This document shows, piece after piece, positions 1 to 41,699 of a stretch of 41,699 nt of DNA (the first letter of the stretch is position 1; every line of letters begins with the position of its first letter). Source of the stretch: a virus. The notes beneath the pieces are model-generated. The model saw nothing but the letters and a program-made list of their open reading frames with translations, had not been told where the DNA came from and did not search any database. The stretch covers positions 1 through 41,699 of the IMG/VR virus record IMGVR_UViG_3300044712_001278. The stretch is one strand, 5' to 3'. Both the position numbers and the translations under genes were made by a program.

Positions 1-1
1 C

Positions 2-1381
2 TGGCCCGAGCAGGATGATACCGGCACCTGGTGGTGCCGCCGCTGCGACAAGGGGGGCGACGCGATCCAGTTCCTCATCGAAGTCGTGGGGATGGCCTTC
101 CCCGAGGCCTGCAAGGCAGTGGGCCGCGAGATCCCCGAGCACCAGGAGATGCGCACCCCCCAGGCGCGCCGGCCCGCAGCCGCCTCCTCTTGGCAGCCCA
201 AAGACCCCGATGCGCCGCCGGCCGCCTGGCTCGAACACGCCGAAAAGTTCGTCACCTGGGCGCACAACCAACTGATCCACCTGGGCGACGGCCCCGGCAC
301 CCCCCTGGCATACCTGGCAGGCAGGGGCATCACCCGCGACAGCGCCATCACCCACCGCCTCGGCTGGAACCCCGGCGAAAAAGGGAGCGACCTCTACCGC
401 GCCCGCGAAGCCTGGGGGCTGGAAACCGTCATGAAAGGGGACAAAAAGAAAAAACTCTGGCTTCCCATCGGCCTGGTCATCCCCTTTTACAAATCCCCCC
501 CCCACCCCCCTTTGGCAAAGGGGGGTGACGAGCTTTCGAGGCGCGGAGATTTGATGACAAAGGGGGGTGACGAGCTTGCGATTCGGGGGGATTTATGCCG
601 CGTCCGGATCCGGATCCCCAAAGAGCGCCGCACCCCGGAATTCTCCACCCCCTACTTCATCGTTCCCGGCTCCGCCATGGACACCTTCGTTGTCGGCGGC
701 GATGCGAAAGGCTACGTGATAATAGAGGCAGAGCTGGACGCCATCCTGGTGGCCCAGGAGTGCGCGGGCCTGCGGATCGGCGCTATGGCCATGGGCAATT
801 CCACCGCCAAGCCGACGGCAGCCGCCTACGTCATGCTCGCCGCATCCCTGCACATCTCAAACGCCCTCGACTACGACCTCCGGGAAGGATCTACGGAAAA
901 CGCCGGCGGCTCCGCCTGGCTTTGGTGGAAAAACCAGTTCCCCCAGGCAGAACGCTGGCCGGTACCGGTCGGCAAGGACCCCGGCGACGCATTCCAGGCC
1001 GGCGTCAATATCCGCCAATGGGTAATGGCGGGGCTCCCCCCTATCTTCAGCATCCCGGCGGGAACGATCCCGGCAGTTTGTGAAACAAAACCGGCCGAAA
1101 CCGAAACGACTGCGACGGAAACGGAAAAAAAGCCCGTCACCGTCCAATACATCCAGGGAAAAAGCCGGGGCGGGCTGATCTACTTCATCACCGACAGCGC
1201 CAAAAACAGGGCGAAACTCGCCGAAAAATTCCCCGGCAAGGCCATCTTCACCCATGCCGAGATCCTTCTGCTCAAGGGGATGGCCCCAGAAGAGGCGGAG
1301 AAATTCATCGTCATAAAGGAAACCTTCGGCCCCGACGCCGAAATCAGCGCCACAGGGCCGGCAAACGAGGAGAACCCATGA
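2..1381 (+). CDS. DNA primase, CHC2/TOPRIM type (5' end cut off by window)
   Basis: This is a phage primase that would make RNA primers at replication forks. The reading frame is open from base 2. Comparison with the second copy at 40898 shows that 44 N-terminal codons are missing, so the full protein would be about 503 residues. The visible part has the end of the CHC2-type zinc finger (WWCRRC, then KGGDAI). It also has a TOPRIM core: the acidic motif VIIEAELDAI near base 716, a DYD motif near base 870, and GKDPGDAF near base 973. A 104-base palindromic repeat is translated in frame in the middle (491-594). The stop overlaps the dnaN start as ATGA, so the two genes are probably translationally coupled. 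Family assignment rests on motifs read by eye and is strong. Confidence 0.9.
   Translation, partial: WPEQDDTGTWWCRRCDKGGDAIQFLIEVVGMAFPEACKAVGREIPEHQEMRTPQARRPAAASSWQPKDPDAPPAAWLEHAEKFVTWAHNQLIHLGDGPGTPLAYLAGRGITRDSAITHRLGWNPGEKGSDLYRAREAWGLETVMKGDKKKKLWLPIGLVIPFYKSPPHPPLAKGGDELSRRGDLMTKGGDELAIRGDLCRVRIRIPKERRTPEFSTPYFIVPGSAMDTFVVGGDAKGYVIIEAELDAILVAQECAGLRIGAMAMGNSTAKPTAAAYVMLAASLHISNALDYDLREGSTENAGGSAWLWWKNQFPQAERWPVPVGKDPGDAFQAGVNIRQWVMAGLPPIFSIPAGTIPAVCETKPAETETTATETEKKPVTVQYIQGKSRGGLIYFITDSAKNRAKLAEKFPGKAIFTHAEILLLKGMAPEEAEKFIVIKETFGPDAEISATGPANEENP
491..594. repeat. Palindromic repeat element inside primase ORF (copy 1)
   Basis: The element begins with AAATCCCCCC and ends with GGGGGGATTT, which are terminal inverted repeats. 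Inside it lies a CCCCCCTTTG / CAAAGGGGGG palindrome, and the block around GGGGGGTGACGAGCTT occurs twice. It is translated in frame as about 35 residues (including PLAKGGDEL and MTKGGDELAIRGDL) between the primase segments IPFY and CRVRIRIP, which would read well as neighbours without it. Close copies lie at 15369-15474 and 41516-41619. Confidence 0.9.
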
Positions 1382-2511
1382 ACTTCACCATAAACCAGAA
1401 AGCATTCAGCGCCGCCATCGGCCGCATCCAGGGCATCGCCACCCCGCGGCAGACCATGCCCGTCCTGGAAAACGTCCTGATCGCCGCCTCTGCGCTGCGC
1501 CCCGTCCTGCACATCAGCGCCACCGACCTGGAGGTCGGCTATACTACCGCCATCGACTGCCACGACATCCAGGCGCCGGGCAGCATCACCATCCCGGCAA
1601 AAAAGCTGTATGAAGTCCTCAGGGCCGCCCCCACCGAACAGGTCACCGTCTCCCTCAACCCGGAAAACGATCGCGTCACCATCGCCTCCGGCACCTTCGT
1701 CACCACCCTGGCCGGGGTCGCCGCCGACGAATTCCCGGCGGTACAGCCCCTCCTGGAAGGCCATCCGTTCCAGCTCGATGCCGCCGCGCTGCTGCGACTC
1801 CTAGGGCACGTGGATTACTGCCAGTCCAACGATCACACGAAATACAACCTGAACGGCGTATTCCTGCGCATCGCCGATGCCGAAGACGGCACCAGGCTCT
1901 ATGCAGCCGCCACCGACGGACACCGCCTGGCAGCCGACAGCGTGCCCCTCCCGGGAGAGCCGCGGGCCATCCCCGCCGATCTCGCCCGGGGCATCATCAT
2001 CCCGCGCAAGGGGATAGCCGAGATCCGCAAGATTGGCGGCGAAGGGGTCCTCTGCTTCACCATCGCCGGCAACAACCTGTCCATCTCCACCGACAGTGAA
2101 ACCATCACCCTGCGCCTCATCGACGGCGACTTCCCCAACTACGCCAGCATCATTCCCAGGAAGCACACTGCCAAGGCCGAGACCAACCGGCAACCCCTCA
2201 TCGACGCCCTGGGGCGCGTCTCCCTCCTGTCCGAGGGCAAACTGCACGGCGTCACCCTCGACTTCGCTGCCGGCGGCATCAGGCTCAATGCGGAGAATGT
2301 CCAGCTGGGGGAGGCCTGCGATCGCGTCATGGCCGGGTACGAGGGCGAGCCTGGCGCCCGCAAGATCAACGCGGCATACCTTACCCAGGCCCTGGCCGCC
2401 TGGGACTGCGCCGTCGTGGATATCCGCATGACCGACGAACTGAGCCCGCTCCTCATCACCCCCTACTGCGAGGACGAGCCCTGCGCCGTGATCATGCCGC
2501 TGAGGAGCTAG
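1378..2511 (+). CDS. dnaN: DNA polymerase III beta sliding clamp homologue
   Basis: This 377-residue protein has the full length and three-domain pattern of the bacterial beta clamp, the ring that tethers polymerase and other factors to DNA. Recognisable features are the N-terminal LENVLIAAS and SATDLEVGYTT segments, KYNLNGVFLR and ATDGHRLAAD in the middle domain, DFPNYASIIP after it, and the C-terminal VIMPLRS like the terminal strand of bacterial clamps. The start overlaps the primase stop (ATGA). A GAGGAG near its end is the ribosome site of the next gene. A phage carrying its own clamp presumably bypasses or competes with the host clamp. The downstream gene carries a canonical clamp-binding pentapeptide. 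Confidence 0.93.
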   Translation: MNFTINQKAFSAAIGRIQGIATPRQTMPVLENVLIAASALRPVLHISATDLEVGYTTAIDCHDIQAPGSITIPAKKLYEVLRAAPTEQVTVSLNPENDRVTIASGTFVTTLAGVAADEFPAVQPLLEGHPFQLDAAALLRLLGHVDYCQSNDHTKYNLNGVFLRIADAEDGTRLYAAATDGHRLAADSVPLPGEPRAIPADLARGIIIPRKGIAEIRKIGGEGVLCFTIAGNNLSISTDSETITLRLIDGDFPNYASIIPRKHTAKAETNRQPLIDALGRVSLLSEGKLHGVTLDFAAGGIRLNAENVQLGEACDRVMAGYEGEPGARKINAAYLTQALAAWDCAVVDIRMTDELSPLLITPYCEDEPCAVIMPLRS

Positions 2512-4742: not shown

Positions 4743-4776
4743 CAAGGCACAATCCAAATAACGCAAGGAACCGTTT

Positions 4777-5100: not shown

Positions 5101-5108
5101 GAGTCACA

Positions 5109-5360: not shown

Positions 5361-5469
5361 CCAGCCTGATCTTTTCACCGCCCAGGCCTGCGACCATCTC
5401 CCCGTCGCCCGGCGGAAATTCGTAAACGGCAGGCTCATCTGCGGGCGCTGCGGAAAGGTGCTGCGATAA
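5353..5469 (+). CDS. 38-residue zinc-finger miniprotein with clamp-motif-like N-terminus
   Basis: This tiny protein is read from the ATG at 5353, which follows GGAGCGGGGATACT and overlaps the end of the preceding gene. It begins MSNQPDLF. QPDLF resembles the QXXLF class of beta-clamp-binding peptides, with the D-L-F positions matching the consensus. The rest holds CDH (residues 13-15) and CGRC, a likely zinc site. Small Cys proteins of this type are common in phages, but the pairing with a clamp-like motif in a phage that encodes its own clamp is notable. Its stop and the next start share one base (TAATG). Confidence 0.6.
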   Translation: MSNQPDLFTAQACDHLPVARRKFVNGRLICGRCGKVLR

Positions 5470-5663
5470 TGTCGGAACACTATCCGAAACACACAAAAGC
5501 GGTCATGGCGCACTGCACTAAATGCGGCCGCCACACCATGCACCGGGTCGACAACGGCCGCCTCGGCTCGTGCCTGGAGCCACACTTCACCGGACTCAGC
5601 AAGGCGCAGGAAAAGCGCCGGGAAAAACAGGAAGCCGAACGTCAGCAGCCGGGGCTGTTGTAA
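5469..5663 (+). CDS. Phage zinc-finger protein
   Basis: This 64-residue protein has CTKCGRHTMHRVDNGRLGSC, followed by a glutamate/lysine-rich helical tail. This CXXCG...C/H layout with the NGRLG turn resembles small zinc proteins found in many phage genomes, usually of unknown function. It is coupled to the previous gene by a TAATG overlap. The tail (KAQEKRREKQEAERQ) is highly charged. Confidence 0.65.
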   Translation: MSEHYPKHTKAVMAHCTKCGRHTMHRVDNGRLGSCLEPHFTGLSKAQEKRREKQEAERQQPGLL

Positions 5664-5669
5664 CCGGAC

Positions 5670-5772
5670 TCACGCAACGGCGCTACGGCGCAACGAAAAC
5701 CTTGAAAGGGGTTTAAGGTTTTAACCCAAAAGAAGATTTTGACTTTCGTCGCGCCGTTGCGTCGTCGCGTGA
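5670..5772. repeat. Long hairpin element, GCAACG-arm subtype (element 1 of 6)
   Basis: The left arm (TCACGCAACGGCGC...CAACGAAA) pairs with the right arm (TTTCGTCGCGCC...GCGTGA) over nearly 30 bases. The centre is AT-rich and reads GGTTTAAGGTTTTAACCC followed by AGATTTTGACTTT. Very similar centres recur in the five CACGAA-arm elements downstream, so arms and core seem to evolve separately. It fills the gap before the membrane protein gene and leaves that gene's leader (AAAGGATTTTAA) intact. Confidence 0.75.
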
Positions 5773-5788
5773 AACAAAAGGATTTTAA

Positions 5789-6010
5789 ATGACCTGGCTC
5801 CTGACCATAGCATCCCTTGTCGGCGTGGTGATGAACATCCGCCTCGACCGGCGCTGCTTCTACATCTGGACCGTAACCAACGCCTGCTGGTGCCTGGTCG
5901 ATTTTTACCAGGGACTCTACGCCCAGGCCGCCCTCTTCGCCGTCTACTTCCTGCTCGCCGTTTACGGGGTGTACGAGTGGGAGAAAAGGAAAATCGGGAA
6001 GCATGCCTGA
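5789..6010 (+). CDS. Small membrane protein, PnuC-like
   Basis: This 73-residue protein has two to three hydrophobic segments (WLLTIASLVGVVMNI, YIWTVTNACWCLVDFY, ALFAVYFLLAVYGVYEW). The W-T-N-W pattern and the AVYGVYEW ending followed by a basic tail resemble the short PnuC-like (nicotinamide riboside transporter-related) membrane proteins of phages. The length is about a third of a full PnuC, so it would have to work as an oligomer or do something else. It overlaps the small terminase gene by eight bases, which places it at the start of the packaging operon. Confidence 0.55.
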   Translation: MTWLLTIASLVGVVMNIRLDRRCFYIWTVTNACWCLVDFYQGLYAQAALFAVYFLLAVYGVYEWEKRKIGKHA

Positions 6011-6737
6011 CAGCGCCCCCCACATATCCCTCGTAGAGGAGCAGATCCTAGCCGAGGCGGTCGAAAAGACCGGCAGGGCATACCAGGAAGCCCCCACCGT
6101 CGCCAACCTGCGCGAATGGAACGCCGCCAGGGCCGCACAGGACAAATACCACCGCGAGCAGGAAGCGGCCGCCACCGGCCACCGCTTCCGCAACCTGGCC
6201 GAGGTGGCCCGCTGGCTGATCCGCCAGGGCTACAAGGTCAACGAGCGCACCGTGCGCAACCATCACAAGGCCGGGCTTTTCCCGGTTCAGGCCGGCGGCG
6301 AATTCCGCCAGGCCGACATCGAGGCATACGCAAAGAACCACCTTGACCGCCCCGGCTACGAGGGCGAATACAGCCCGGCCGGCAGCGCAAAGGACCGCCT
6401 CGCCGAAGCCATGGCCGAAGAGCGCGAACTGCGCAACAAGAAACTGAAAGGCGAGCTGATCGACGCCGCCGAGGAAGAGGCCAGGGACGCCAGGCTGTGG
6501 CGCGCCGTCCGCGCCGACATGGAAAACCACGCGCCCGGCGTCATCAACGAACTGGTGGACAGGGTCATGGCAGCGATCAGCGATCAGCGGACAGCGTACA
6601 GTGAACAGGAAGGCCTGGAAGCGGCCAAGCAGAGAATCACCGGCCTGGTCCCCGAGCTGCGCCTGAGCTACGAGGAATTCCTGGCCGAACTGTTCGATAG
6701 ATATGCCCAGCAAGGCGGGATTGAGGTGGAACTTTAA
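6003..6737 (+). CDS. Terminase small subunit
   Basis: This 244-residue protein should recognise the packaging site on concatemeric DNA and guide the large subunit. A winged-helix-like DNA-binding segment lies at about 60-115 (FRNLAEVARWLIRQGYKV, NERTVRNHHKAGLFP, GGEFRQADIEAYAK), as in Nu1-type small subunits. A long charged helix follows (KDRLAEAMAEERELRNKKLKG) and then a C-terminal region for large-subunit contact. It is directly followed by terL without a gap. Bases 6571-6598 are four tandem heptamers of the form CAGCGNN lying within the coding sequence. They encode AISDQRTAYS, which resembles the start of the fibre protein at 17115. Confidence 0.8.
   Translation: MPDSAPHISLVEEQILAEAVEKTGRAYQEAPTVANLREWNAARAAQDKYHREQEAAATGHRFRNLAEVARWLIRQGYKVNERTVRNHHKAGLFPVQAGGEFRQADIEAYAKNHLDRPGYEGEYSPAGSAKDRLAEAMAEERELRNKKLKGELIDAAEEEARDARLWRAVRADMENHAPGVINELVDRVMAAISDQRTAYSEQEGLEAAKQRITGLVPELRLSYEEFLAELFDRYAQQGGIEVEL
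6571..6598. repeat. Heptamer array CAGCGNN x4 inside terminase small subunit
   Basis: Four consecutive 7-base units read CAGCGAT, CAGCGAT, CAGCGGA, CAGCGTA. The last unit is the same as the one repeated at 17118-17145. Seven is not a multiple of three, so unit gain or loss would shift the terminase frame. Confidence 0.8.
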
Positions 6738-8621
6738 ATGAACTTAGCCACCCAACCCACAACCAAATTCATCACCTTCCGCCCGGCGGAACAAAAGGCC
6801 TTCCGCCGGCGCAAGCGCCTCCCCGGCCCCCAGTGGGCCGAGCGCAATATCTACGTCCCGGTCGGCTCCCGCCAGGGGCTCTACCGCAACCACAACAACC
6901 CGCCCCTGCACGGCATCCTCGAGGCCGCCTCGCGCCCTCACGTGCGCACCGTCGTCATGGCCAAGGGGATCCAGACCGGCGGCACCCTGGTCTTCTATGC
7001 CCTGCTGTTGCGCGAGGCCGATTACAGCGGCGGCGGCGATAACGCCCTGATCGTCATGGCCGACGAGCGCAGCGTCAAGAAACTGAGCAAAAAGCGCCTG
7101 CAGCCCATGATCGACAAGAGCCCCACCCTGGCCGCCATCAAGTCCGGCAACCCCGACGACACCACCATATACAGCATCACCCTGGCCGACGGCTTCACCA
7201 TAGACATCGGCTGGGCCTCCTCCGAGATGTCCGTCTCCTCCGAATCCTACCGGGTCGTCATCCTGGACGAGATCAGCAAGTACAAGGCCACCGGCAACAT
7301 CCAGGACGCCAAAGGCCGCGCCACCGTTTACCCCGACAGCAAGAAAATATTCATATTCTCCTCCCCCGGCGTAGACTCCGACGACCCGGCCGCCCGCGAT
7401 CCGCTCATGAAAGAGGCCGAGGCCTGCGACGTCATCATGGAATACCACGTCCAGTGCCCCGACTGCGGCGCCGACCAGGTCATGACCGACGAGCAGATCA
7501 AGTATCCCATGCAGCAGGCCCTGCTCCCCGGCAGCGAGGCCGCCGACGCCAAAACCATCCGCCGGCTGAAACTGGCCTACTACGAATGCCCCCACTGCCT
7601 CAGCCGCTGGAACGACTTCAAGCGCGACAAGGCCGTGCTCAAGGCCATGAAGCACGGCTGGCAGCCCATAGACAAGAGCATCGAGCACCCGCAAAGCCTT
7701 TACTTCCACTATCCCTCCTGGCTCTCCCCCTTCATGAGCCTGTCCGAAGTGGCCGCCCGCCGCATCGAGGCCCAGGGCGACGACGAAAAGCTGCGCAAAT
7801 ACGAAAACCTCGTCGCAGGTCGGACGTACCGGCACGAAAAGAAAGAGCGCCCCCACGCTTCCATCCTCTCCCTGCGCGACGACCGCCCCGAGGGGCTTGT
7901 CCCGTCCGTGCCGATCGCGGCCATCAGCATCTTCGCCGACATGCAGAAGAGGGGCTTCTGGTACAAGGTCACCGCCTGGGGTTTCGGGCTGGAGCAGGAA
8001 AGCTGGACCCTCAAGGCGGGATTTGTGGACAGTTGGGAAGCCCTGCGCAAGATGATGTTCGAAAGCGTATTCGAGGACGTGCAGAAAAACCCTTATTACA
8101 TAACCCTGCGGGCGCTGGATTCCGGCGGCGGCGAAGGGGAAGAGCACGCCGACCTTTCCCGCACCGCAGAGGCCTACCTGTTCGCCGCCGCAAACCCCGG
8201 CGTGCTGTTATTCAAGGGCCGGCGCCAGCTAACCCGCAATTACAGCAACCCGACAGATATCGACAGGATACCCGGCACGAACAAGCCACTGCAGGGATCC
8301 GCCAAGCTGTACACCATCAACACCACATTCTACAAGGACAAGCTCGCAGGTAAACTGCTGGTCAACCCCTCGGATCCTGGGGCCTGGCATCTGCACAAGG
8401 ATATCGACGAGGATTTTGCAAAGCAGATGTGCGTAGAGTACAAGAATCCCCAGGGGCACTGGGAGTGCCCGAAAAACAAGGCCAACCATTACTGGGACTG
8501 CGCCTCCAATGAGCTGGCCCTGGTGGAGATCGCCCAGGTCAAGTTCTGGCAACGGCCGGAGGGCGCAGAACAGGCCGCTCCGCAACGGAAAATTTACAGC
8601 AAAGGGGTAATACATGACTGA
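6738..8621 (+). CDS. Terminase large subunit, GpA family
   Basis: This 627-residue protein is the packaging motor and nuclease of the lambda gpA family. Its N-terminus has the typical GPQWAERNIYVP region. The P-loop region is AKGIQTGGT (residues 75-83), where the usual lysine of GKT is replaced, a kind of deviation also seen in lambda gpA. Walker B is VVILDE (173-178). Two cysteine pairs, CPDC (240-243) and CPHC (284-287), form the family zinc-binding insertion. The C-terminal half carries the nuclease domain (ALDSGGGEGEEHAD, then HYWDC near the end). It directly follows the small subunit, and its end overlaps the HTH gene by eight bases. Confidence 0.93.
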   Translation: MNLATQPTTKFITFRPAEQKAFRRRKRLPGPQWAERNIYVPVGSRQGLYRNHNNPPLHGILEAASRPHVRTVVMAKGIQTGGTLVFYALLLREADYSGGGDNALIVMADERSVKKLSKKRLQPMIDKSPTLAAIKSGNPDDTTIYSITLADGFTIDIGWASSEMSVSSESYRVVILDEISKYKATGNIQDAKGRATVYPDSKKIFIFSSPGVDSDDPAARDPLMKEAEACDVIMEYHVQCPDCGADQVMTDEQIKYPMQQALLPGSEAADAKTIRRLKLAYYECPHCLSRWNDFKRDKAVLKAMKHGWQPIDKSIEHPQSLYFHYPSWLSPFMSLSEVAARRIEAQGDDEKLRKYENLVAGRTYRHEKKERPHASILSLRDDRPEGLVPSVPIAAISIFADMQKRGFWYKVTAWGFGLEQESWTLKAGFVDSWEALRKMMFESVFEDVQKNPYYITLRALDSGGGEGEEHADLSRTAEAYLFAAANPGVLLFKGRRQLTRNYSNPTDIDRIPGTNKPLQGSAKLYTINTTFYKDKLAGKLLVNPSDPGAWHLHKDIDEDFAKQMCVEYKNPQGHWECPKNKANHYWDCASNELALVEIAQVKFWQRPEGAEQAAPQRKIYSKGVIHD

Positions 8622-15295: not shown

Positions 15296-15487
15296 ATGAC
15301 CTGCTACATCTGCCGCCGCACCGGCGCGAAAACCTGCGGAGAGCACTGCGGTCTGTGCGCGGAGCAGGAAATCCCCCCCAACCCCCCTTTGACAAAGGGG
15401 GGTGACGAGACGTCGACGAGTCGGGGGGATTTGATTACAAAGGGGGGTGACGAGCCTGCGAGTCGGGGGGATTTGGAGAGACCATGA
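15296..15487 (+). CDS. Zinc-knuckle small protein with repeat-encoded tail
   Basis: This 63-residue protein begins CYICRRTGAKTCGEHCGLC, a two-pair cysteine layout typical of a small zinc knuckle. The C-terminal 38 residues (from about IPPNPPLTKGG) are translated from a copy of the CCCCCCTTTG element, the same family that sits inside the primase. Its stop overlaps the endolysin start (ATGA), so the element has been kept in frame up to the coupling point. Function is unknown. Confidence 0.5.
   Translation: MTCYICRRTGAKTCGEHCGLCAEQEIPPNPPLTKGGDETSTSRGDLITKGGDEPASRGDLERP
15369..15474. repeat. Palindromic CCCCCCTTTG repeat element (copy 2)
   Basis: It has the same architecture as 491-594: AAATCCCCCC at the left, CCCCCCTTTG/CAAAGGGGGG inside, a duplicated GGGGGGTGACGAG block, and GGGGGGATTT at the right. 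It is two bases longer than the primase copies. Confidence 0.88.
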
Positions 15488-15909: not shown

Positions 15910-15925
15910 ACAAAACGGAAGATCG

Positions 15926-16052
15926 TTAACCACGAACCACACGAACCACTCGAAAGAAAGGCAAAAACAAAAAAACGGTTTAAGGGTTTAAAACAAATAA
16001 AGCGGGTTTAAAGTTTCCCCCTTTTCGTGTTTTTCGTGTGTTTCGTGGTTAA
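15926..16052. repeat. Long hairpin element, CACGAA-arm (element 3 of 6)
   Basis: TTAACCACGAA at the left pairs with TTCGTGGTTAA at the right, with the ACACGAACCACTCGAAA / TTTTCGTGTTTTTCGTGT stretches also complementary. The core has GGTTTAAGGGTTTAAAAC. It fills the gap between endolysin and the next gene, leaving GTGGAGGCAAAA as that gene's ribosome site. Confidence 0.88.
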
Positions 16053-16080
16053 ATCAGATTTTTTAAAAGTGGAGGCAAAA

Positions 16081-22012: not shown

Positions 22013-23254
22013 ATGGCACAGGCACAGGGGGCGCAGGCCCTGACTTCGTTGCAGATGGAGCGCAGTTTCAAGACCGCCGCGACTTCTGTGAAATCGAAAA
22101 AGGTTTACTTCATCGACAACAGCCTCGGGAGGTCGCAGACGAGCGAGACCTCCAAGGTCAAACGTGGCGCGTCCCGCCAGCCCACCAGGGGGATCGCCGG
22201 GACGGTGGATGTGGGCGGTTCCATATCCGGCGAGATCATGGCGACATCCGCATTCTGGGCGGCGGTCCTGGGCAGCGTCCAGATCACCGGCGCCACCGTC
22301 ACGGTGGGCTCCGCCCTCGCGACCCCGGCTTTTGCCTACGACTGGGTGAATCAGCAGGTGACGGTCACATCCACCGCCCACGGGCTGGTTATCGGCGATA
22401 CGGTGGAGGGGATATTCACCGCCCCGGCGCTGTTGAACGGCACCTATTATTATCCCGTCATAGACGTCCCAACCGTGGACACCTTCGTCATCTGGGTCCC
22501 CATGGGGGGCTCAAGCACCATCACGTGCACCACCATCAAGAAATGCACGGCCGGGACCTTCACCTATACCTACAAAGGGGGCGGCAAGCTCCCCAGCTAC
22601 ATCGTTGAGAAGGGTTTCCCTGACATCGCCCAGTATTTCAAGTACACGGGCTGCACTGCCGGTTCGCTGGATATCAGCAATATCGCCGCCTCGGGCATCG
22701 CGTCGTTCAACGTCGATTTCATGGGCGCTGCGGAGACAACCGCCACCTCGTCATTCGACAGCGGCACCCCCATCGACAACACCAAGATCAGCTTCGACAA
22801 CACCCTGCTGGCCGCCGCCGATGTCAAGGAAGGGGGCAGCGCCATCAACTACCTGAAAAGCATCTCCATCAAGCTGGACAACGCCCTGGACGGCGACACG
22901 TTTGTGGTCGGCGGTGGCGGGGTGCGCGGTGGGATCAATGCCGGGGTCTACCAGGTGACAGGGAGCATCCAGGCGGTATTCCAGGACATGGCCCTTTATA
23001 CGAAGGCGCTCAACCGGACCGAGTCCAGTCTGGATCTGGCATGGAAGTTAGGGACCGGAGCAGGGACCGCCGGAAATGAAAGCGTGCAGATCGTCATCCC
23101 GGAGCTACTATTCTCCGCAAAGTCTCCGCCAATCTCTTCCGATGGCGGGGTGTTCATGGACATGGATTTCACCGGCGACTATACGGACAATGCCGACGCG
23201 GCCGCAATCAAGGTCATAGTCAAATGCACCCAACTGCCGGGGCAGGTTATATGA
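22013..23254 (+). CDS. Major tail tube protein with inserted domain
   Basis: This 413-residue protein starts after GAAAGGAGCTGAAAAC. Landmarks are the N-terminal EVSKVKRGASRQPTRG-like region (SETSKVKRGASRQPTRGI), SISGEIM, and the core strands GSLDISNIAASGIASFNVDFMG, SISIKLDNALDG, GVYQVTGSIQAVFQD, and LLFSAKSPPISSDGGV. About 75 residues after position 95 (AYDWVNQQVTVTSTAHGLVIGDTVEG...) look like a separate surface-exposed insertion. Siphophage tubes often carry such Ig-like additions. Synteny with the terminator and chaperone supports the call. Confidence 0.85.
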   Translation: MAQAQGAQALTSLQMERSFKTAATSVKSKKVYFIDNSLGRSQTSETSKVKRGASRQPTRGIAGTVDVGGSISGEIMATSAFWAAVLGSVQITGATVTVGSALATPAFAYDWVNQQVTVTSTAHGLVIGDTVEGIFTAPALLNGTYYYPVIDVPTVDTFVIWVPMGGSSTITCTTIKKCTAGTFTYTYKGGGKLPSYIVEKGFPDIAQYFKYTGCTAGSLDISNIAASGIASFNVDFMGAAETTATSSFDSGTPIDNTKISFDNTLLAAADVKEGGSAINYLKSISIKLDNALDGDTFVVGGGGVRGGINAGVYQVTGSIQAVFQDMALYTKALNRTESSLDLAWKLGTGAGTAGNESVQIVIPELLFSAKSPPISSDGGVFMDMDFTGDYTDNADAAAIKVIVKCTQLPGQVI

Positions 23255-23260
23255 AAGGCA

Positions 23261-23410
23261 TTAACCACGAAACACACGAACCACTCGAAAAAAAGGCAAA
23301 AAAAAGGATTTGGGCTTAACACCAAAAACGGGTTTAAGTTTTTAACGATTTTCCCCCTATTCAGTTTTTAGATTTTGTCTTTTTTCGTGTATTTCGTGTG
23401 TTTCGTGGTT
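23261..23410. repeat. Long hairpin element, CACGAA-arm (element 4 of 6)
   Basis: TTAACCACGAAACACACGAA pairs with TTCGTGTGTTTCGTGGTT across an AT-rich centre with GGGTTTAAGTTTTTAAC and AGATTTTGTCTTTT. The remaining part of the 260-base gap (23411-23514) holds a short GCGGG/CCCGC hairpin and the AAGAGG site of the next gene, nothing else that I can see. Confidence 0.92.
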
Positions 23411-23514
23411 CCCGATTTTGTTGCGGTGAATGGTCTTACAAGGGCGGGGATGGAAAGTCCCGCTACAACCAAAATACGAAAGCCGGGCTGTGAATCGCCA
23501 CGGCAAGAGGATTT

Positions 23515-26903: not shown

Positions 26904-26941
26904 GCCAGAAAGGCGATTACCACGAACTATCGAAAGGCGAT

Positions 26942-27097
26942 TTAACCACGAAACACACGAACCACTCGAAAGAAAAGCGAAACAAAAAGGGTTTTAATGT
27001 TTTAACCCCAGAATAGATTTTAAGTGTTCAAGATTTTACCCAAACCCGGATTTATAGATTTTGACTTTTTCGTGTATTTCGTGTGTTTCGTGGTTAA
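26942..27097. repeat. Long hairpin element, CACGAA-arm (element 5 of 6)
   Basis: TTAACCACGAAACACACGAA pairs with TTCGTGTGTTTCGTGGTTAA; the centre contains GGGTTTTAATGTTTTAACCCC and AGATTTTGACTTTT. A partial extra left arm (ATTACCACGAACTATCGAAA, 26916-26935) precedes it. It fills the 237-base gap before the hub gene, leaving AAAAGGAAGG as that gene's leader. Confidence 0.92.
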
Positions 27098-27140
27098 TGA
27101 TGTTTTTGAAGTATTTCGTGTTTAAAAGGAAGGTTTTGAT

Positions 27141-29150
27141 TTGAAGAGTTTCCCCTCCGAATTTGCCATCGAACTGGCCCGCACGGACGGCCCGGCGCCC
27201 CACTGGGTCCTCAAGATCCAGAAGGACAGCGATACCTGGTATCTCTCCGACATCGCCGGCAACATCGCCGTCTGGGACGTTACCGGTTACGATGCCGTTT
27301 CCGACTGGGGGGCGATTCAGGGCGGGGTCAACGGTTCGTTGGACGAGTTCCACGTCACTGAGCATACTGTAAGGCTGCTGCTCGGACGGGCAATCGACGG
27401 CAGCGGCAATGACCTGGAGGACCTGATAGATGCGGGGTCCCTGTTCGGCGCCACCTTTACCCTTTACCTGGGCCTCTCCGGCATCGCCGTTGCGCCGCAG
27501 ATCATGGACGTTTACAAGCTCCGGGACCTGGGGGATATGGACGACACCACTGTCACCCTGCAACTCCAGGACCTGACCGCTGACCTGGAAAAGTGCTACA
27601 TAGGTAGCAAGCTCTCCCTTGACGACTATCCCAATGCCGATCCGGACGACGTGGGGAAGGTCATCCCCATCCCCTTCGGCAACGTGACCAAGATCCCTGC
27701 CCTGTGCATCAACCAGACCGCTACTTATGTCTATATTTTTTCCGACCGGCCGGTTACTACCGCCCCCCATGTCTATGTGCGGGCTCGTGACGATCTGGCG
27801 GATATCGATATCACCGCCCACTGTACAATCTATACCGGCCAGACCGGTTCGGAGCACGCCTCGTACCCCGGCAAGGGGGTGTTGACCATCGACTCCGGAC
27901 ATGCGGCATCCATCCAGGCCCTGGTGCAATTTGTCCTTACCGACGGGATTGGGGTAAGCGACACCATCGACGTCTCGACGGGCAGCCACGGCCACACGGT
28001 GAGCGAGGTAAGCAGGGAACAAGTCGCCTCCAACCAGGGGACAACCTACGGCGACAGCAGCTCCACATCGGTAAACATCCAGCCCACGTACCCATCCGTG
28101 GCCGACATCGTGGAGCAGACCAATTACTGGACATACTCTTATGGCGGCAATGGCTATGCCAAAAACGTTTATATCAACGGGGTCCTGGTCCACAGCGGCT
28201 CATCGTCCGGGTCCATGCAGACCTGGTCCGGGACTACCGAGAGCCTGCCCCATCTGTACGTTGAGAACACCTCCGGCACCAACTGTTGGGCGCGTTTCGA
28301 GGAGGTCACAAGACGCGTCGTTACCTACACGCCGACCACCTCCAGCGACCCGGCCACAGGCGTCGCGAAATCAGGCAGCGCATCCAAAACCGGTACGGTG
28401 ACCCTCGACCAGCCCCCCTATGCCAAGGACATCGCCCGGCTGGTGCTGGTTTCCGTTACCTCCGACAATTACGCCCCGACGGACGCCCTGGATTACATAC
28501 TTGATCAGGCCGGGCAATCTGCCGTTACCAACCGCGTCACCCTCTCCGATACATACCGGTTTGACGGCATAATAAATGAGTACCGGACCGCTCTCCAGTG
28601 GCTGAATATCCTATCCTTCCAGGTCGCCGCCCGTTTTGCCATGGTGGGCGGTTCCCCCATGCTCCTCCCCCGCTGGCCGGGGGAACATGTCAAGACCATT
28701 AAGAGCTGTATTGTAGACGAGGGGAGCGGTAAAAGGATGCTGGTGCGCAGGCTCACCCCTTACGAGGAGATCATCAACCGGGTGATTGTGCTCTACAACC
28801 GTGACTGGACAAAGAGCGGCGATGAGGCCTATCGGGCCAATTACAAGGCCCCGGATGATACCGCCTCCATCGCCAAATACAGCCTCCATGAGCGTCCCGA
28901 ATTGTTCCGGTTCGATTTTGTCACCACCGCCGCACATGCGCGAACTGTTGGCGAGACGTTCCTACGGAACCATAAAGAGAGACATTGGGTGGCTGAATTC
29001 CCACGCCACCTGGCGGACATGGACCTGGAGCTGGGTGACACCCTCCTCCTGGAATTTCTCGGCGATAAGGTGGGGATAGTCATCCCGGCAGAGCCGGTCC
29101 CCGGCAGTTACCAGGCGGCCGACCTGATCAAATTGACCGTGAGGATTTAA
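27141..29150 (+). CDS. Tail hub / tip protein
   Basis: This 669-residue protein uses TTG after AAAAGGAAGGTTTTGA; no ATG is near. The first 200 residues resemble baseplate-hub N-termini (FAIELARTDGPAPHWVLKI, DFTLYLG-like TFTLYLGLSG). The middle (about 260-430) is a repetitive Ser/Thr-rich beta region. The C-terminal third includes ALDYILDQAG, RFDGIINEYRTALQWLNIL and ELGDTLLLEF, typical of hub/tip (gpJ-like or phage tail protein) C-terminal halves. It should connect the tail tip to the fibres and spike. Confidence 0.75.
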   Translation: MKSFPSEFAIELARTDGPAPHWVLKIQKDSDTWYLSDIAGNIAVWDVTGYDAVSDWGAIQGGVNGSLDEFHVTEHTVRLLLGRAIDGSGNDLEDLIDAGSLFGATFTLYLGLSGIAVAPQIMDVYKLRDLGDMDDTTVTLQLQDLTADLEKCYIGSKLSLDDYPNADPDDVGKVIPIPFGNVTKIPALCINQTATYVYIFSDRPVTTAPHVYVRARDDLADIDITAHCTIYTGQTGSEHASYPGKGVLTIDSGHAASIQALVQFVLTDGIGVSDTIDVSTGSHGHTVSEVSREQVASNQGTTYGDSSSTSVNIQPTYPSVADIVEQTNYWTYSYGGNGYAKNVYINGVLVHSGSSSGSMQTWSGTTESLPHLYVENTSGTNCWARFEEVTRRVVTYTPTTSSDPATGVAKSGSASKTGTVTLDQPPYAKDIARLVLVSVTSDNYAPTDALDYILDQAGQSAVTNRVTLSDTYRFDGIINEYRTALQWLNILSFQVAARFAMVGGSPMLLPRWPGEHVKTIKSCIVDEGSGKRMLVRRLTPYEEIINRVIVLYNRDWTKSGDEAYRANYKAPDDTASIAKYSLHERPELFRFDFVTTAAHARTVGETFLRNHKERHWVAEFPRHLADMDLELGDTLLLEFLGDKVGIVIPAEPVPGSYQAADLIKLTVRI

Positions 29151-29165
29151 AAACAGAAAAGCGAT

Positions 29166-29318
29166 TTAACCACGAAACACACGAACCACGCGAAAGAAAG
29201 GCAAAAGCAAAAAAGTCTTAGGTTTAAAACCAGAAATCGAATTTAAGGTTTAAAGATTTGACCCTCTGTAATTGGTTTAAGGTTTTTCCGTTTTCGTGTA
29301 TTTCGTGTGTTTCGTGGT
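29166..29318. repeat. Long hairpin element, CACGAA-arm (element 6 of 6)
   Basis: TTAACCACGAAACACACGAA pairs with TTCGTGTGTTTCGTGGT. The core contains GGTTTAAAACCAGAAATCG and a second GGTTTAAGG. An extra right-arm fragment (GTGTTTCGTGGTTCC) follows at 29338-29352. It separates hub and spike genes. Confidence 0.9.
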
Positions 29319-29369
29319 CCCGATTTTATAGGTTAAGTGTTTCGTGGTTCCGAATTAATGGAGGTGCAA

Positions 29370-31472: not shown

Positions 31473-31518
31473 TGGTGGAGCTGATCAGGATCGAACTGAC
31501 GACCTCTTGAATGCCATT
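31473..31518 (-). other. Attachment core: 3' half of tRNA-Ala(GGC)
   Basis: On the minus strand the 46 bases run from the anticodon loop ATGGCAT (anticodon GGC) through TCAAGAGGTC, the T-loop TTCGATC and the acceptor end AGCTCCACCA. The 5' half of the tRNA is absent: the bases before it (CCGTGTTA on the minus strand) do not form the expected stem. A tRNA 3' fragment next to a tyrosine integrase is the classic attP (or prophage junction) signature; integration would rebuild the host tRNA. Confidence 0.88.
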
Positions 31519-31539: not shown

Positions 31540-31569
31540 GGCGGAATGACTATGTTATTCCGCCTTTTT
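31540..31569 (+). terminator. Rightward terminator at integrase 3' end
   Basis: GGCGGAAT pairs with ATTCCGCC over a 9-base loop, followed by TTTTTATTA on the plus strand. It would stop late-operon readthrough into the integrase gene in antisense. It overlaps the integrase stop codon. Confidence 0.78.
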
Positions 31570-32628
31570 ATTATCCCGGTGGGATATCTGGTTTCGCCAT
31601 TTGCGGGTGGCGTCGATGATTTCGCGTTTCCGGCGGGATGATATGTGGGTGTATTTGCTGGTGGTTTTGATGTCCTGGTGATCGAGGATCTCCTGGGCGC
31701 CGCGGAGATCGCCGCCGGCCTCGAGGATGTCGGTTGCCATGGCATGGCGCAGGCCGTGGGTGCCTTTGATTTTTACGCCAGCCCTGGCTGCATTCCCCTG
31801 GATGAGTTTCCGGATGGTAGTGTAAGGCTCGTCGGTGGTCGAGTTTGTGAAAACATACCCCTGCGGCGCACGAAATGGCTTCAGGAGGGCAAGGATGTCC
31901 GGGGAGATGATGGCATATCGGGCGCGGCCGTTTTTGGTTCTCCCGAGGTAAATGCGTCCATCGTCGTGGATGTTTTCCCAGCGGATATGGCGGGCTTCGA
32001 CAAATCTGATTCCTGTTTCATAGATCGTGAGGAGAAGCGCCTTTTTTATTGCCCGGTCCCGGACGGAGGTTCCGGATTCCCGAAAGTTGATTTCGACCTC
32101 CGCCATAAAGCGGGTGAATTCGTCGGGGTCAGGCGGTTCGGGGATGTTGCGGAAGTGCCGAAGTTTCTCAATCCGGAAAGGGAGCGGCCTTGCCATATCC
32201 CGATCGGCGGCCCAGTTGATAATTACCTTGAGGTAGTCAAGGCACTGGTTGCAGTGGGCAGGCGTGGCCTTGTGAGCGGCCTTGAAATCATCGATGAGTA
32301 TGCGGGTGATGGATTTGACGGCGTGACGGCCGAAATGGGGCCTCAGTTTGGCGACGGCCCAGCTGAATGATTTGCAATAGCCGGGGGAGCGGTTGGTCTC
32401 CAGCCAGGCCAGGAATTTGGGAATGATCTCGTTGAGCGTGGGGTTGGTTTTTGGAGCTGCATCTGCATGGTGCGCCCGCTGCAGCTCCAGGTCGCGGCGG
32501 ACGGCTTCGTCATAGGGGCCTATCCATGTTTCATAGATGCGGCGACGGCCGCCTTTCGCCGACGGGTCGGGTATCCAGATGTATATCTGCCAGGCGCCTT
32601 CTATTGTGGGGTGTCTGCGGACGGCCAT
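31555..32628 (-). CDS. int: Tyrosine-family site-specific integrase
   Basis: This 357-residue recombinase catalyses integration and excision at the tRNA-Ala site 37 bases beyond its stop. The catalytic set is complete: Arg208 (ETGIRFVEA), HGLRH (His291, Arg294), His317 (ILDHQD) and the nucleophile Tyr326 (SKYTHIS). A core-binding domain lies at about 65-160 and an N-terminal arm-binding region precedes it. The ATG directly follows the TGA of the upstream exported-protein gene, so expression of the two is probably coupled. Confidence 0.96.
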   Translation of the reverse strand: MAVRRHPTIEGAWQIYIWIPDPSAKGGRRRIYETWIGPYDEAVRRDLELQRAHHADAAPKTNPTLNEIIPKFLAWLETNRSPGYCKSFSWAVAKLRPHFGRHAVKSITRILIDDFKAAHKATPAHCNQCLDYLKVIINWAADRDMARPLPFRIEKLRHFRNIPEPPDPDEFTRFMAEVEINFRESGTSVRDRAIKKALLLTIYETGIRFVEARHIRWENIHDDGRIYLGRTKNGRARYAIISPDILALLKPFRAPQGYVFTNSTTDEPYTTIRKLIQGNAARAGVKIKGTHGLRHAMATDILEAGGDLRGAQEILDHQDIKTTSKYTHISSRRKREIIDATRKWRNQISHRDNKKAE

Positions 32629-36905: not shown

Positions 36906-37639
36906 GCCCGGAAGAGGAATGGCTGGACAAGAATACGTTTGATTGTGAGCGGTTTTCATGTCGGATGCAGCCAAAACAGTGCTTATTGAATCAAAAAGAT
37001 GCCAACCCTGTGTGTATAGGCTGCCCGCAGACTGGAAATATCGAGGTAGGCCAAAAAACACCAGCAAAGACTAAATGGAGCGGCCAGCGAATGGCGGAGA
37101 ACGAGGATATGTCACATATAGGGACGTGCCCGGTTTGCAAGGAACCTGGGAAGAAACTAATAAGCAGGAACGGCCGGTGTTGGGGTTGCTATAACAAAGG
37201 CGTGCAGGATGTCTCGCGTGATAAGACAAACAAGGCCACAGTCAGTCGAATGTGCCGTGCATCCGGATGCAAGAAATATAAGGTCAAAGATGGATTTTGC
37301 ACCGTGCATCATAAGGAATATGCGGTGGGGACGATCTACACTCCCCCGCCCCCCCTCTCTGATGTCCAGGCGCAGGAAAAGGACGTCCTGGGCAGTCTGC
37401 TGGCACCCTTACCCTTCGATCAGGGCATGTTCGTGCCGATGGATGATGATCTCTATAGGCGCGTACAGGACCTGGGTCTAATGCACGAGGATGTGGCCGT
37501 TCTACTGCTGCATCTGCTGGATGGACATCTGCGCTGGCGTGATGAGTTCTCCCGGAGCACACCCCATCTCGCCGCCCCCGCACCCCTATCCTTTCAGAGA
37601 GATGCCCAGCCCAATGGTCATAAAGAGGCCGGGGCATGA
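36902..37639 (+). CDS. Multi-cysteine zinc-finger protein
   Basis: This 245-residue protein is read from the ATG overlapping the previous stop. It contains at least three cysteine clusters: CERFSCRMQPKQC...CIGC (15-41), TCPVCKEPG...RCWGCYNKG (about 75-100), and MCRASGCKKYKVKDGFCTVHH (about 117-137). The C-terminal part is helical (LYRRVQDLGLMHEDVAVLLLHLL). Several zinc modules suggest nucleic-acid binding or transcription control, but no family is recognised. It is coupled to the gpZ-like gene by an ATGA overlap. Confidence 0.7.
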   Translation: MSPEEEWLDKNTFDCERFSCRMQPKQCLLNQKDANPVCIGCPQTGNIEVGQKTPAKTKWSGQRMAENEDMSHIGTCPVCKEPGKKLISRNGRCWGCYNKGVQDVSRDKTNKATVSRMCRASGCKKYKVKDGFCTVHHKEYAVGTIYTPPPPLSDVQAQEKDVLGSLLAPLPFDQGMFVPMDDDLYRRVQDLGLMHEDVAVLLLHLLDGHLRWRDEFSRSTPHLAAPAPLSFQRDAQPNGHKEAGA

Positions 37640-38313
37640 TCACTGTGACGTGCAAGATGGAGGGGATGGATAAGGCGCTGGCTGCTTTAGACCCTAAGAT
37701 CGTTAAGGCGGCTGCCTACCGTACCATTAACAGGTCGGTGGATGGACTGGTGACCGACATCAGCAAAGTGGTCCGCACCACATTCAACATTAAGAAACAG
37801 GACATCGATCCCCGGATCAAGAAAGAGAAGTGCCCGGATTACAACACGCTGCGCGGGTCGGTCACCGTATCCGATGAGCCCAAGAGCAAGATCCCCTTGA
37901 TCATGTTCGGGGCAGTGGAGCGCCGCAACCTGGCAAGTGGATCGGTCAAGACCAGGAAGGGCAAGGATGGTTTTTACTCGCAGAAGCTGAAGCGCAAGGG
38001 GCAGGCAGGTGTGTCCTACAAGGTATTGAAGCAGGGCGGCAAGGGATTCAGCGGCAACGCCTTCATCATCCCTGGAGGGCGCGGATCTCTCCAGGTGGTG
38101 CGCCGACTGAAAGGCCAGAAGGGCAGGTTTGCCCTGGAAGAGAAGCGGGTGATCAGTGTCGCGGCCATGGCGGGCAGCACTAAGCAGGGAGTCATGGTTC
38201 GCATAAGGCAGGCGGCTGAAAAGCGAATGGCGGTGAACTTTGAGCGAGAGCTTAAATACTACCAGGCCCGCGCAGCATCTGGCCTCAGCATCGGTGGCAG
38301 CAGACGCCCATAA
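37636..38313 (+). CDS. Minor tail protein Z-like
   Basis: This 225-residue protein resembles lambda gpZ, which is involved in tail completion. Matching features are an N-terminal helical part with AAAYRTINRSVDGLVTDISK and a basic middle (NIKKQDIDPRIKKEKC). They continue with IPLIMFGAVERRNLASG, KRKGQAGVSYKVLKQGG, a GFSGNAFIIPGG segment, and a C-terminal basic helix. A tail gene here, between zinc-finger early genes and the replication module, is misplaced. It may have been carried over from an ancestor with a different gene order, or be a different protein sharing the fold. Confidence 0.7.
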   Translation: MITVTCKMEGMDKALAALDPKIVKAAAYRTINRSVDGLVTDISKVVRTTFNIKKQDIDPRIKKEKCPDYNTLRGSVTVSDEPKSKIPLIMFGAVERRNLASGSVKTRKGKDGFYSQKLKRKGQAGVSYKVLKQGGKGFSGNAFIIPGGRGSLQVVRRLKGQKGRFALEEKRVISVAAMAGSTKQGVMVRIRQAAEKRMAVNFERELKYYQARAASGLSIGGSRRP

Positions 38314-38449: not shown

Positions 38450-38860
38450 ATGTCGGAGAAAATGGGAAGCCGGCTGTTTACACCCGAGGCGGCGGCGCGA
38501 TCGTTCGGCGCGGACATGCTCAGGGCTGACAAGTGCATTCTCTGGATAGTTGACCAGCTGCACCCGGCCGGCGCCTTCTGCCCTGACTGCTCCGCCTCTA
38601 TTATCGACGAGCGCCGCCAGGCGCGTTTCTATGCCCTGGAGCAGATCCGCTGCCCCGCCTGTGGCAAGAAATTCACCGCCGCCACCGGCACCATCCTCAA
38701 CGGGGCCAAGCTGGAGCCCACGGAGATCTACCTGCTCGCCGTGCTGACGCATCTCAAAGTCTCCCCTGTTTCAATCGCCGCCTGCCTGCGCTGCCACGTC
38801 GACACGGTCCACAACTGGCAGGCCCACTTCCGCGCATTCCAGGAGATCATTGGTGCCTGA
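38450..38860 (+). CDS. Zinc-ribbon/HTH protein related to transposase N-termini
   Basis: This 136-residue protein follows CAAGGAGTTATGATAT. CPDC and CPACGKKFTAATGTIL form a zinc ribbon, followed by LEPTEIYLLAVLTHLKVSPVSIAACLRCHVDTVHNWQAHF, an HTH. The ribbon-plus-HTH order and the RCPXCGKKF...TGTI pattern recall the N-terminal domain of IS1595-type transposases, but the DDE catalytic part is absent. It is therefore probably a DNA-binding protein of phage use, perhaps a regulator or origin or packaging factor. It is just before the helicase gene, whose start overlaps its stop. Confidence 0.75.
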   Translation: MSEKMGSRLFTPEAAARSFGADMLRADKCILWIVDQLHPAGAFCPDCSASIIDERRQARFYALEQIRCPACGKKFTAATGTILNGAKLEPTEIYLLAVLTHLKVSPVSIAACLRCHVDTVHNWQAHFRAFQEIIGA

Positions 38861-40475
38861 CAGCCTCCCCCCCGACACAACCGGCGACGACATCCGCGCC
38901 CAGGTCGAAGAGCGGCGGCGCATCGAGGCCGAGGCCCTGGAGGCGAACGCCAAGCCCGAAGCGCCCGTCGTCACCCCGCGCCTGATAAAGCAGTGTCTGC
39001 AGTCTAACGAGCTGGGCGACGGCACCCTCTATGCCGCACTACACCGCGGCCAGTACCTCTACAACAAGAACACCGCCCAGTGGCTGGCATGGAAGGGTCA
39101 TCATTGGGACATCGACATCATGGACGCATCATTCGCCGCAGTCGAGACAGTAGCCACCACCTACCTGGAGGCAGGCCACGCATTGAAAGACCAGATCGAC
39201 GAGCTATACACCGCCGAGAAAAAAAGCGAAGCCGAGGCCCTCAAAGGCCAGCAGAAAGCCTTTTACGCCCGGGTCAAAAAGCTCCGCTCCGTCACCGGCG
39301 TAAACAACTGCCTCACTTACAGCCACCGGATCCGCGAGCCCATAGCCATCAAGGGGGACGAGATCGACACAAACCCCTGGCTGCTGGCCTTCGTCAACGG
39401 CGTTCTCGACCTGCGCACCGGGAAATTCCGCGACGGCCGCCCCGACGACTACCTGCTCAAGGCCGTCCCCCACGAATGGCAGGGCCTCGACGCCCCCGCG
39501 CCCACGTTCCATGAATACCTGCACAGCTCCCTCGACGGCCCCCCCGAACTCAGCGCCGAAGGCCGCGCCGACTACAGCCGCCAGCTCACCGAATTCATGC
39601 TGCGCGCCCTGGGCTACGGCATCACCGGCCTCTCCACCGAGCAGATATTCCTCGTCCTCAGCGGCCCCGGCGGGCGCAACGGCAAGGGGATCCTCGTCGA
39701 GACCCTGCGCTACGTCCTCGGCTCCCTGGCCGGCCCGATCCCCTCCGAGATGCTCCTCGACCAGGGGCGCGCGAAATCCAGCTCCGGGCCGTCACCCGAC
39801 ATCATGGCCCTCAAGGGCCTGCGCCTCGCCTTCGCCTCCGAGACCGACGAAGGCCGCCGCTTCTCCCCCGGGCAGGTCAAATGGTACTCCGGCGGCGACA
39901 CCCTCACCGGCCGGCTGCCCCACGACAAGCGCAACACCTGTTTCGACCCCACGCACCTGCTTATCCTGCTTACCAACAACCTGCCGCACGCCCCCGGCGA
40001 CGACTTCGCATTCTGGGACCGGCTCAAGCTCGTCCCCTTCCACTACTCATTCGTCGCAGATCCGGACCCGGCAAAGCCCAACCAGAAAAAGCGCAACGAC
40101 AACCTGCGCGAAAAACTAAAGAGCGAGGCCGCCGGGATCCTGGCCCTCCTCGTGCGCGGCTGCCTCCAGTGGCAGCGCGACGGGCTCAACCCGCCCGCCA
40201 TAGTAACCAGCGCCACCGAAGAATACCGCATGGACGAAGACACCATCACTCAATTCGTGGACGAATGCTGCATCCGCCTCAGCGGCTCCGTGGTCAAGGC
40301 CGCCGACCTCTACAAGGCATTCTCCACCTGGTACCAGGAGCACATCGGCGAGAAGGTCCCCAAGCAGAAGAAATTCGGGGCCATGCTCTCCAAGCAGTTC
40401 AAGAAAGACAAGGTCGGAGGGGTCGTCAAATACTATGGCCTCGAACTCAACGGCGAACAGCAGAGCAGTTTCTGA
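38853..40475 (+). CDS. Replicative helicase, D5/P4-type (SF3) with primase-associated C-terminus
   Basis: This 540-residue protein is read from the GTG seven bases after AGGAG; a TTG one codon upstream is possible. The C-terminal half is a superfamily 3 helicase of the phage/plasmid P4/D5 group. Walker A is GPGGRNGKG (about 271-279), Walker B is near LRLAFASETDEG (about 323-334), and sensor 1 is LLILLTNNLP. The middle has the D5_N-type FVNGVLDLRTGKF segment, and a C-terminal winged-helix region follows (KAADLYKAFSTWYQEHIG). It should unwind the origin at 40599-40888 and work with the primase encoded next. Confidence 0.92.
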   Translation: MPDSLPPDTTGDDIRAQVEERRRIEAEALEANAKPEAPVVTPRLIKQCLQSNELGDGTLYAALHRGQYLYNKNTAQWLAWKGHHWDIDIMDASFAAVETVATTYLEAGHALKDQIDELYTAEKKSEAEALKGQQKAFYARVKKLRSVTGVNNCLTYSHRIREPIAIKGDEIDTNPWLLAFVNGVLDLRTGKFRDGRPDDYLLKAVPHEWQGLDAPAPTFHEYLHSSLDGPPELSAEGRADYSRQLTEFMLRALGYGITGLSTEQIFLVLSGPGGRNGKGILVETLRYVLGSLAGPIPSEMLLDQGRAKSSSGPSPDIMALKGLRLAFASETDEGRRFSPGQVKWYSGGDTLTGRLPHDKRNTCFDPTHLLILLTNNLPHAPGDDFAFWDRLKLVPFHYSFVADPDPAKPNQKKRNDNLREKLKSEAAGILALLVRGCLQWQRDGLNPPAIVTSATEEYRMDEDTITQFVDECCIRLSGSVVKAADLYKAFSTWYQEHIGEKVPKQKKFGAMLSKQFKKDKVGGVVKYYGLELNGEQQSSF

Positions 40476-40598: not shown

Positions 40599-40888
40599 AT
40601 CAGGACCATAGGACGATGGCAGGATAGACGCAATCCCACTATCCTGCTTGCAACATTTTGAAATCAAAAGGGATTAACCGACTATCAGGACGATAGGACA
40701 GAGTTGTAAAAAACTATTTTTTACATTTTCGGCGTAGCCTAAGCATTAAATCAGGATGATAATTCTTTACAAATACGTCCTATCGTCCTGATAAATAAAA
40801 AAAGTATAATAATATAAAGACTTTAAATAATAGGACGATGATTGAAAACGGGATTTTTTATTGTCCTATCGTCCTGATAATCATCCTG
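40599..40888. other. Iteron array, probable replication origin
   Basis: The 422-base gap between helicase and primase genes holds no gene. The 17-mer TATCAGGACGATAGGAC occurs exactly at 40683-40699 (plus) and, inverted, at 40777-40793 and 40863-40879. Degenerate copies lie at 40599-40614, 40750-40760, 40830-40842 and 40880-40888. GCAGGATAG (40619-40627) and CTATCCTGC (40639-40647) form an inverted repeat. A strongly AT-rich stretch (40790-40830) lies between two inverted iterons and would suit DNA unwinding. The location between helicase and primase supports an origin, though a regulator-binding region is the main alternative. Confidence 0.75.
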
Positions 40889-40897
40889 GAAGGAACC

Positions 40898-41699
40898 ATG
40901 AACCTCCTCGACCTGGCGCAAAAATACGGCACATACCGCAAGCACAGCACTGCCAAGGGCGGCGAATACGTGGGGCCGTGCCCCGTCCGCTCCACCTGTG
41001 CCGGCTCAGGGGAAGACCGCTTCCACATCTGGCCCGAGCAGGATGATACCGGCACCTGGTGGTGCCGCCGCTGCGACAAGGGGGGCGACGCGATCCAGTT
41101 CCTCATCGAAGTGGAGGGGATGACCTTCCCCGAGGCCTGCAAAGCCGTGGGCCGCGAGATCCCCGAACACCAGGAGATGCGCACCCCCCAGGCGCGCAGG
41201 CCGGCAGCCTCCTCCTGGCAACCGAAAGACCCTGATGCGCCGGCGGGCGCCTGGCTCGAGCACGCCGAAAAATTCGTCACCTGGGCCCACAACCAGCTGC
41301 TCCACCTGGGCGACGGCCCCGGCACCCCCCTGCACTACCTGGCCGGCAGGGGCATCAGCCGCGACAGCGCCATCACCCACCGCCTCGGCTGGAACCCCGG
41401 CGAAAAGGGTGGCGACCTCTACCGCGCCCGCGAGGCCTGGGGGCTGGAGACCGTCATGAAAGGGGACAAAAAGAAAAAACTCTGGCTCCCCATCGGCCTG
41501 GTCATCCCCTTTTACAAATCCCCCCCCAACCCCCCTTTGGCAAAGGGGGGTGACGAGCTTGCGAGGCGGGGGGATTTGATGACAAAGGGGGGTGACGAGC
41601 TTGCGATTCGGGGGGATTTATGCCGCGTCCGGATCCGGATCCCCAAAGAGCGCCGCACCCCGGAATTCTCCACCCCCTACTTCATCGTTCCCGGCTCCG
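40898..41699 (+). CDS. DNA primase, CHC2/TOPRIM type (second copy, 3' end cut off by window)
   Basis: The ATG follows GGAAGGAACC. The 267 visible codons contain the complete zinc-finger region: cysteines 28, 34, 56 and 59, with His43 between (GPCPVRSTC, FHIWPEQ, WWCRRC). From base 41029 it matches bases 1-671 with about 95% identity, differing by 34 substitutions and one 3-base indel (an Ala run is one residue shorter). It carries the same in-frame palindromic repeat (41516-41619), translated as residues about 207-241. The zinc finger and TOPRIM (beyond the window in this copy) together define a phage primase working with the upstream helicase and origin. Confidence 0.93.
   Translation, partial: MNLLDLAQKYGTYRKHSTAKGGEYVGPCPVRSTCAGSGEDRFHIWPEQDDTGTWWCRRCDKGGDAIQFLIEVEGMTFPEACKAVGREIPEHQEMRTPQARRPAASSWQPKDPDAPAGAWLEHAEKFVTWAHNQLLHLGDGPGTPLHYLAGRGISRDSAITHRLGWNPGEKGGDLYRAREAWGLETVMKGDKKKKLWLPIGLVIPFYKSPPNPPLAKGGDELARRGDLMTKGGDELAIRGDLCRVRIRIPKERRTPEFSTPYFIVPGS
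41516..41619. repeat. Palindromic CCCCCCTTTG repeat element in second primase copy (copy 3)
   Basis: It is 104 bases, the same position within the gene and the same architecture as 491-594, with four base differences: one near the left poly-C tract and three between the two GGGGGG blocks. Both primase copies therefore inherited the insertion from a common ancestor. Confidence 0.92.

Follow-up and report, generated by a model that had tools for sequence, protein, structure and literature searches.

Imperfect end repeat of a temperate phage record very probably marks an assembly seam in a complete circular genome

The metagenomic virus record IMGVR_UViG_3300044712_001278 closes by repeating its own beginning imperfectly, and its ends raise the question of whether they come from two related prophages lying side by side in a chromosome or from strain variants that met during assembly. 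The window analysed here is the entire IMG/VR record, 41,699 bases, and it ends at its own overlap. Comparison of the window with itself by blastn aligned 1-674 with 41029-41699 at 94.7% identity (E 0, which rules out a chance repeat) and revealed no other long repeat. At this identity the ends do not form the perfect direct terminal repeat of an ordinary circular contig.

Two primase alleles at the ends of the record

Our gap-aware count gave 34 substitutions and one 3-nt in-frame indel between the two end copies, in agreement with the original prediction, except that the head copy measures 674 bases rather than 671; the tail copy is 671 bases long. The first 84 and the last 127 bases of the repeat are blocks of identity, and every difference is confined to 85-547 (41113-41572). 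The repeat falls within a single primase gene, whose product has an N-terminal zinc ribbon and which is cut at both record ends (Table 1); neither copy contains a stop in the primase frame. The 34 substitutions are distributed as 22 at the third, 8 at the first and 4 at the second codon position, and 22 of the 32 differing codons are synonymous and 10 non-synonymous. Because the differences lie mostly at third positions and remain in frame, they look like natural coding variation, that is, two real alleles from two strains, as judged from the letters of the record. Sequencing error as their source was ruled out by the third-position bias, the in-frame indel and the absence of stops.

Table 1. 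Positions of the genes, repeat copies and att core in the window
Feature	Position	Strand	Evidence
3' part of the primase (head fragment, 5' end open)	2..1381	+	PHROG DNA primase
Beta-clamp-like gene of DNA polymerase III, downstream of the primase	1378..2511	+	Three DNA_pol3_beta domains
Terminase large subunit (TerL), lambda gpA type	6738..8621	+	GpA_ATPase, GpA_nuclease
attP core: 3' half of a tRNA-Ala(GGC) gene	31473..31518	-	45-nt core exact in Desulfuromonadia genomes; ARAGORN
Tyrosine integrase adjoining attP	31555..32628	-	Pfam Phage_integrase 7e-24; PHROG integrase 3e-43
D5-type helicase/primase, preceding the primase in the window and in relatives	38850..40475	+	Pfam D5_N; colinear with L007, L008
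5' part of the primase (tail fragment, 3' end open)	40838..41698	+	Pfam Zn_ribbon_DnaG, Zn_Ribbon_Prim; PHROG DNA primase
Head copy of the repeat: variant haplotype of the primase 5' part, with 1-547 modelled as the strain-variant in-tip of the graph	1..674	+	94.7% identity to 41029-41699; de Bruijn model
Tail copy of the repeat: primase haplotype closing the 41,025-bp circle	41029..41699	+	Self-alignment; de Bruijn model
Exact copy of the final 127 bases of the record; closing vertex at k=127	548..674	+	Exact match
Final 127 bases of the record, matching 548-674 exactly; longest exact repeat of the window	41573..41699	+	One repeated 127-mer, no repeated 128-mers

The primase probably starts at the ATG at 40898. 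When the tail of the window is joined to its head, the gene order of the related loci L007 and L008 is restored: in L007 the helicase is followed by the primase, beta clamp and TerL in a single run, and L008 has colinear matches to the helicase, primase and TerL. The gene content is that of a temperate phage with lambda-type head genes, comprising a gpA terminase, a lambda-family portal, an S49 protease and an integrase with attP. A gene at 37636-38313 resembles minor tail protein Z or Neck1 (Pfam Minor_tail_Z 2e-9; PHROG tail completion 2e-18) and sits in the early region beside the replication genes, well away from the remaining tail genes.

Direct repetition of one end by the other is also what a packaged linear genome with true terminal redundancy would display, had its ends diverged. 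However, the repeat lies inside a gene and the terminase is lambda gpA-like; terminases of this type package from cos sites, without terminal repeats. Moreover, the terminal repeats of phages arise through copying, and every virion chromosome carries them in identical form, as stated for non-permuted repeats (PMC10563150); within one molecule, 34 differences over 671 bases would not be expected to last. We therefore give terminal redundancy a practically negligible chance.

Two kinds of repeated element were also observed in the window. A G/C-rich palindromic repeat with the core CCCCCCTTTGGCAAAGGGGGG occurs at 491-597, 41516-41622 and 15369-15474. Inside the primase it lies in frame and adds about 30 residues (KSPPHPPLAKGGDELSRRGDLMTKGGDELAIRGD), an insert that is missing at the same point from the primases of L007 and L008. 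Its first 35-44 bases resemble dispersed repeats in 20 of the 58 genomes of the Desulfuromonadia order searched, and the repeat recalls the palindromic elements found within Rickettsia genes. The second element, of about 150-170 bp, is present in four copies (23250-23419, 26928-27099, 29150-29327 and 15912-16062) that are about 80% alike and lie mostly between tail genes. Its imperfect inverted ends (AACCACGAAACACACGAACCACTCG ... CGTGTATTTCGTGTGTTTCGTGGTT) give it a MITE-like appearance, and similar ends were found scattered in 5 of the 58 host-order genomes.

A circle with one variant arm

Contigs produced by metaSPAdes and MEGAHIT break where paths meet, with end overlaps equal to maxK, which is 127 in the usual metaSPAdes series (the largest k commonly used) and 141 for MEGAHIT (PMC10914622); strain variants form bubbles in the assembly graph, and contigs terminate there (PMC10563150). 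In the window, the last 127 bases (41573-41699) recur exactly at 548-674, and no longer exact repeat exists anywhere in the record, which contains one repeated 127-mer and zero repeated 128-mers. The end of the record thus repeats an earlier stretch for exactly the maximum k, 127 and not 128, as expected of a lasso-shaped path. Both this match and the fact that the window is a whole database record had escaped the original prediction.

We modelled the graph from the 41,025-bp circle (675-41699) and a piece of the head haplotype that begins at base 1. With k set to 127, the graph consisted of a 674-base arm leading into a loop of 41,152 bases; joined, the two reproduced all 41,699 bases of the window exactly. 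The path at k=99 fell 28 bases short, and at k=55 and 77 the graph took a different form. Built from the window itself, this model shows that the record stops at the point required of a k=127 lasso, and that other values of k place the end elsewhere.

The following sequence of events would account for the record. In a k=127 de Bruijn graph, the phage would be a circle with one extra arm, the primase allele of a second strain (1-547), entering at the vertex 548-674. The assembler would start on the arm, travel once around the circle through the other allele (41029-41572) and stop on sequence already used, with the usual k-base overlap. One feature does not follow directly from this lasso: the shared stretch on the left is 84 bases long, whereas 127 would be expected from a complete bubble arm, so an arm that is a dead end or branches further has to be assumed. 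Base 1 may accordingly be where the arm stops dead or where strains branch apart again; in the simplest account, the reads of the variant strain would run out there or the strain would branch again upstream.

Taken as a whole, we hold it highly probable that the record is the complete circular genome of a temperate lambda-type phage, 41,025 bp in length (675-41699), recovered from a mixed-strain short-read metagenome, and that its divergent ends are an assembly seam. The sample would then have contained at least two strains, and we infer a metaSPAdes-like assembler run at k=127. The original prediction had also offered mixed-strain assembly, by long-read joining of variants; the mixing of strains is supported here, but the joining by long reads is not, since a 127-base overlap fits short-read de Bruijn assembly. 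Two haplotypes at the ends would likewise follow if long reads had joined two strain variants or if a read were chimeric. Yet this explanation does not predict a closing overlap of exactly 127 bases, nor that a related phage should show the same length in an unrelated gene (below). Neither primase copy has the homopolymer frameshifts that older long reads typically contain, and we regard this explanation as very unlikely.

The ends of 13 related metagenomic virus records were compared over the outermost 2.5-5 kb each, yielding one lasso at 127, two circles at 141 and 10 records without overlap (several of these short fragments), counts that do not amount to a base rate. The lasso was IMGVR_UViG_3300025030_000183 (G002; 45,765 bp), which bears TerL, helicase and primase; its TerL is 59% and its helicase 68% identical to those of the window. 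The suffix of this related phage matches its own head at 570-696 for exactly 127 bases, preceded by a 79%-identical variant, so that geometry and suffix length are those of the window; it differs in that the variant arm lies in a tail-fibre gene and is 79% identical, whereas that of the window lies in the primase. As the tail-fibre gene is unrelated to primase, the recurrence of the same length points to the assembler, and no shared biology is expected between the two seams. This second record, whose ends were examined as L035 (1-2500) and L036 (43266-45765), holds two tail-fibre alleles and is classed as linear; it is probably a complete circle of 45,069 bp. The two plain circles, G011 and G012 (43.0 and 43.8 kb), are more distant relatives with exact 141-base end overlaps. 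A broader TerL scan and a portal scan added mostly isolate prophages or short fragments, and the end comparison was kept to the 13 records. No copy of the phage was found among GenBank phages with 1-8000 as the query, and none in IMG/VR when a 34-mer of the shared head was sought as an exact match.

The tRNA-Ala att site and tandem prophages

The tRNA-Ala fragment at 31473-31518 proved to be real, as originally predicted: its first 45 bases (31473-31517) were matched with at most one mismatch in 46 of 277 Desulfuromonadia genomes, most of them exactly, and ARAGORN called tRNA-Ala(GGC) in all six of the core-bearing Desulfuromonadia loci fetched. ARAGORN detected no complete tRNA in the window, where phage genes flank the fragment on both sides, and none of the other fetched loci contained the core. 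An att core beside an integrase is a normal attP, as in any temperate phage.

A profile search of genomes with TerL returned distant relatives, the best being 58% identical in a Desulfuromonadaceae MAG, on which basis the host probably belongs to Desulfuromonadia. No integrase relatives were found in genome contigs. We also found no related prophage at tRNA-Ala; integrases were present in 3 of 271 Desulfuromonadia genomes, at only 35-39% identity.

In the reading that the original prediction favoured, this att core was the internal junction of two related prophages, about 5% divergent, in tandem at the tRNA-Ala(GGC) gene of a lysogen, with the contig running from the first primase through the junction to the second. 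The arrangement has points in its favour, as two alleles of one gene are present with the integrase and the tRNA-Ala(GGC) core between them, and tandem heterotypic prophages do exist, for example in Mycobacterium abscessus T36 (PMC9934374); consecutive phages of this kind would likewise produce an att junction flanked by phage genes. However, one circular temperate phage has this core too, as its attP, and the core then lies between the two repeat copies as well. A tandem junction is locally identical to attP, and therefore the att site does not decide between a circle and a tandem.

Other features of the record bear on the choice. Both prophages and the host flanks were assembled in M. abscessus T36 (PMC9934374), whereas the window has 671 repeated bases and no host DNA: over the whole record, neither a second phage copy beyond the 671-base overlap nor host chromosome on either side, at tRNA-Ala or otherwise, was found. 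In a tandem it would also have to be an accident that both ends of the contig came to lie within one 671-base stretch of a 41-kb cycle, and a right end lying exactly 127 bases past the last difference is not predicted. In addition, a simulated tandem with 5% divergence, assembled at k=127, broke at scattered chance shared 127-mers into 13 unitigs, the longest of 18 kb, instead of one 41.7-kb piece whose ends coincide. The idea of tandem prophages is not absurd, only unsupported here, and we assign it a very small probability.

Known assembly phenomena and circular genomes filed as linear

The seam of the circular phage genome resembles the contig-end overlaps described with COBRA (PMC10914622), in which a contig end repeats sequence at exactly maxK (127) where more than one graph path exists, with within-population variation among the simulated causes. 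It differs in that the right end of the window matches an internal stretch of the same contig (548-674) rather than the end of another contig, and tests of end against end would consequently miss the circle. Phables (PMC10563150) likewise describes phage variants as alternative arms in a circular graph component and mentions dead-end arms, whereas the window represents a flattened contig. The divergent end repeat is very probably ordinary and gives no evidence for side-by-side phages in a chromosome. If the seam is read in this way, it is very probably because its end repeat is imperfect that the phage was classed and stored as linear.

The biological import of the repeat is small, namely two primase alleles in one phage population. 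It carries a caution, in that strain variation can lead to an imperfect end repeat, by which complete circular phage genomes are filed as linear and imperfect ends can be misread as tandem prophages; a simple check for such records is whether the last k bases (127 or 141) recur inside the record.
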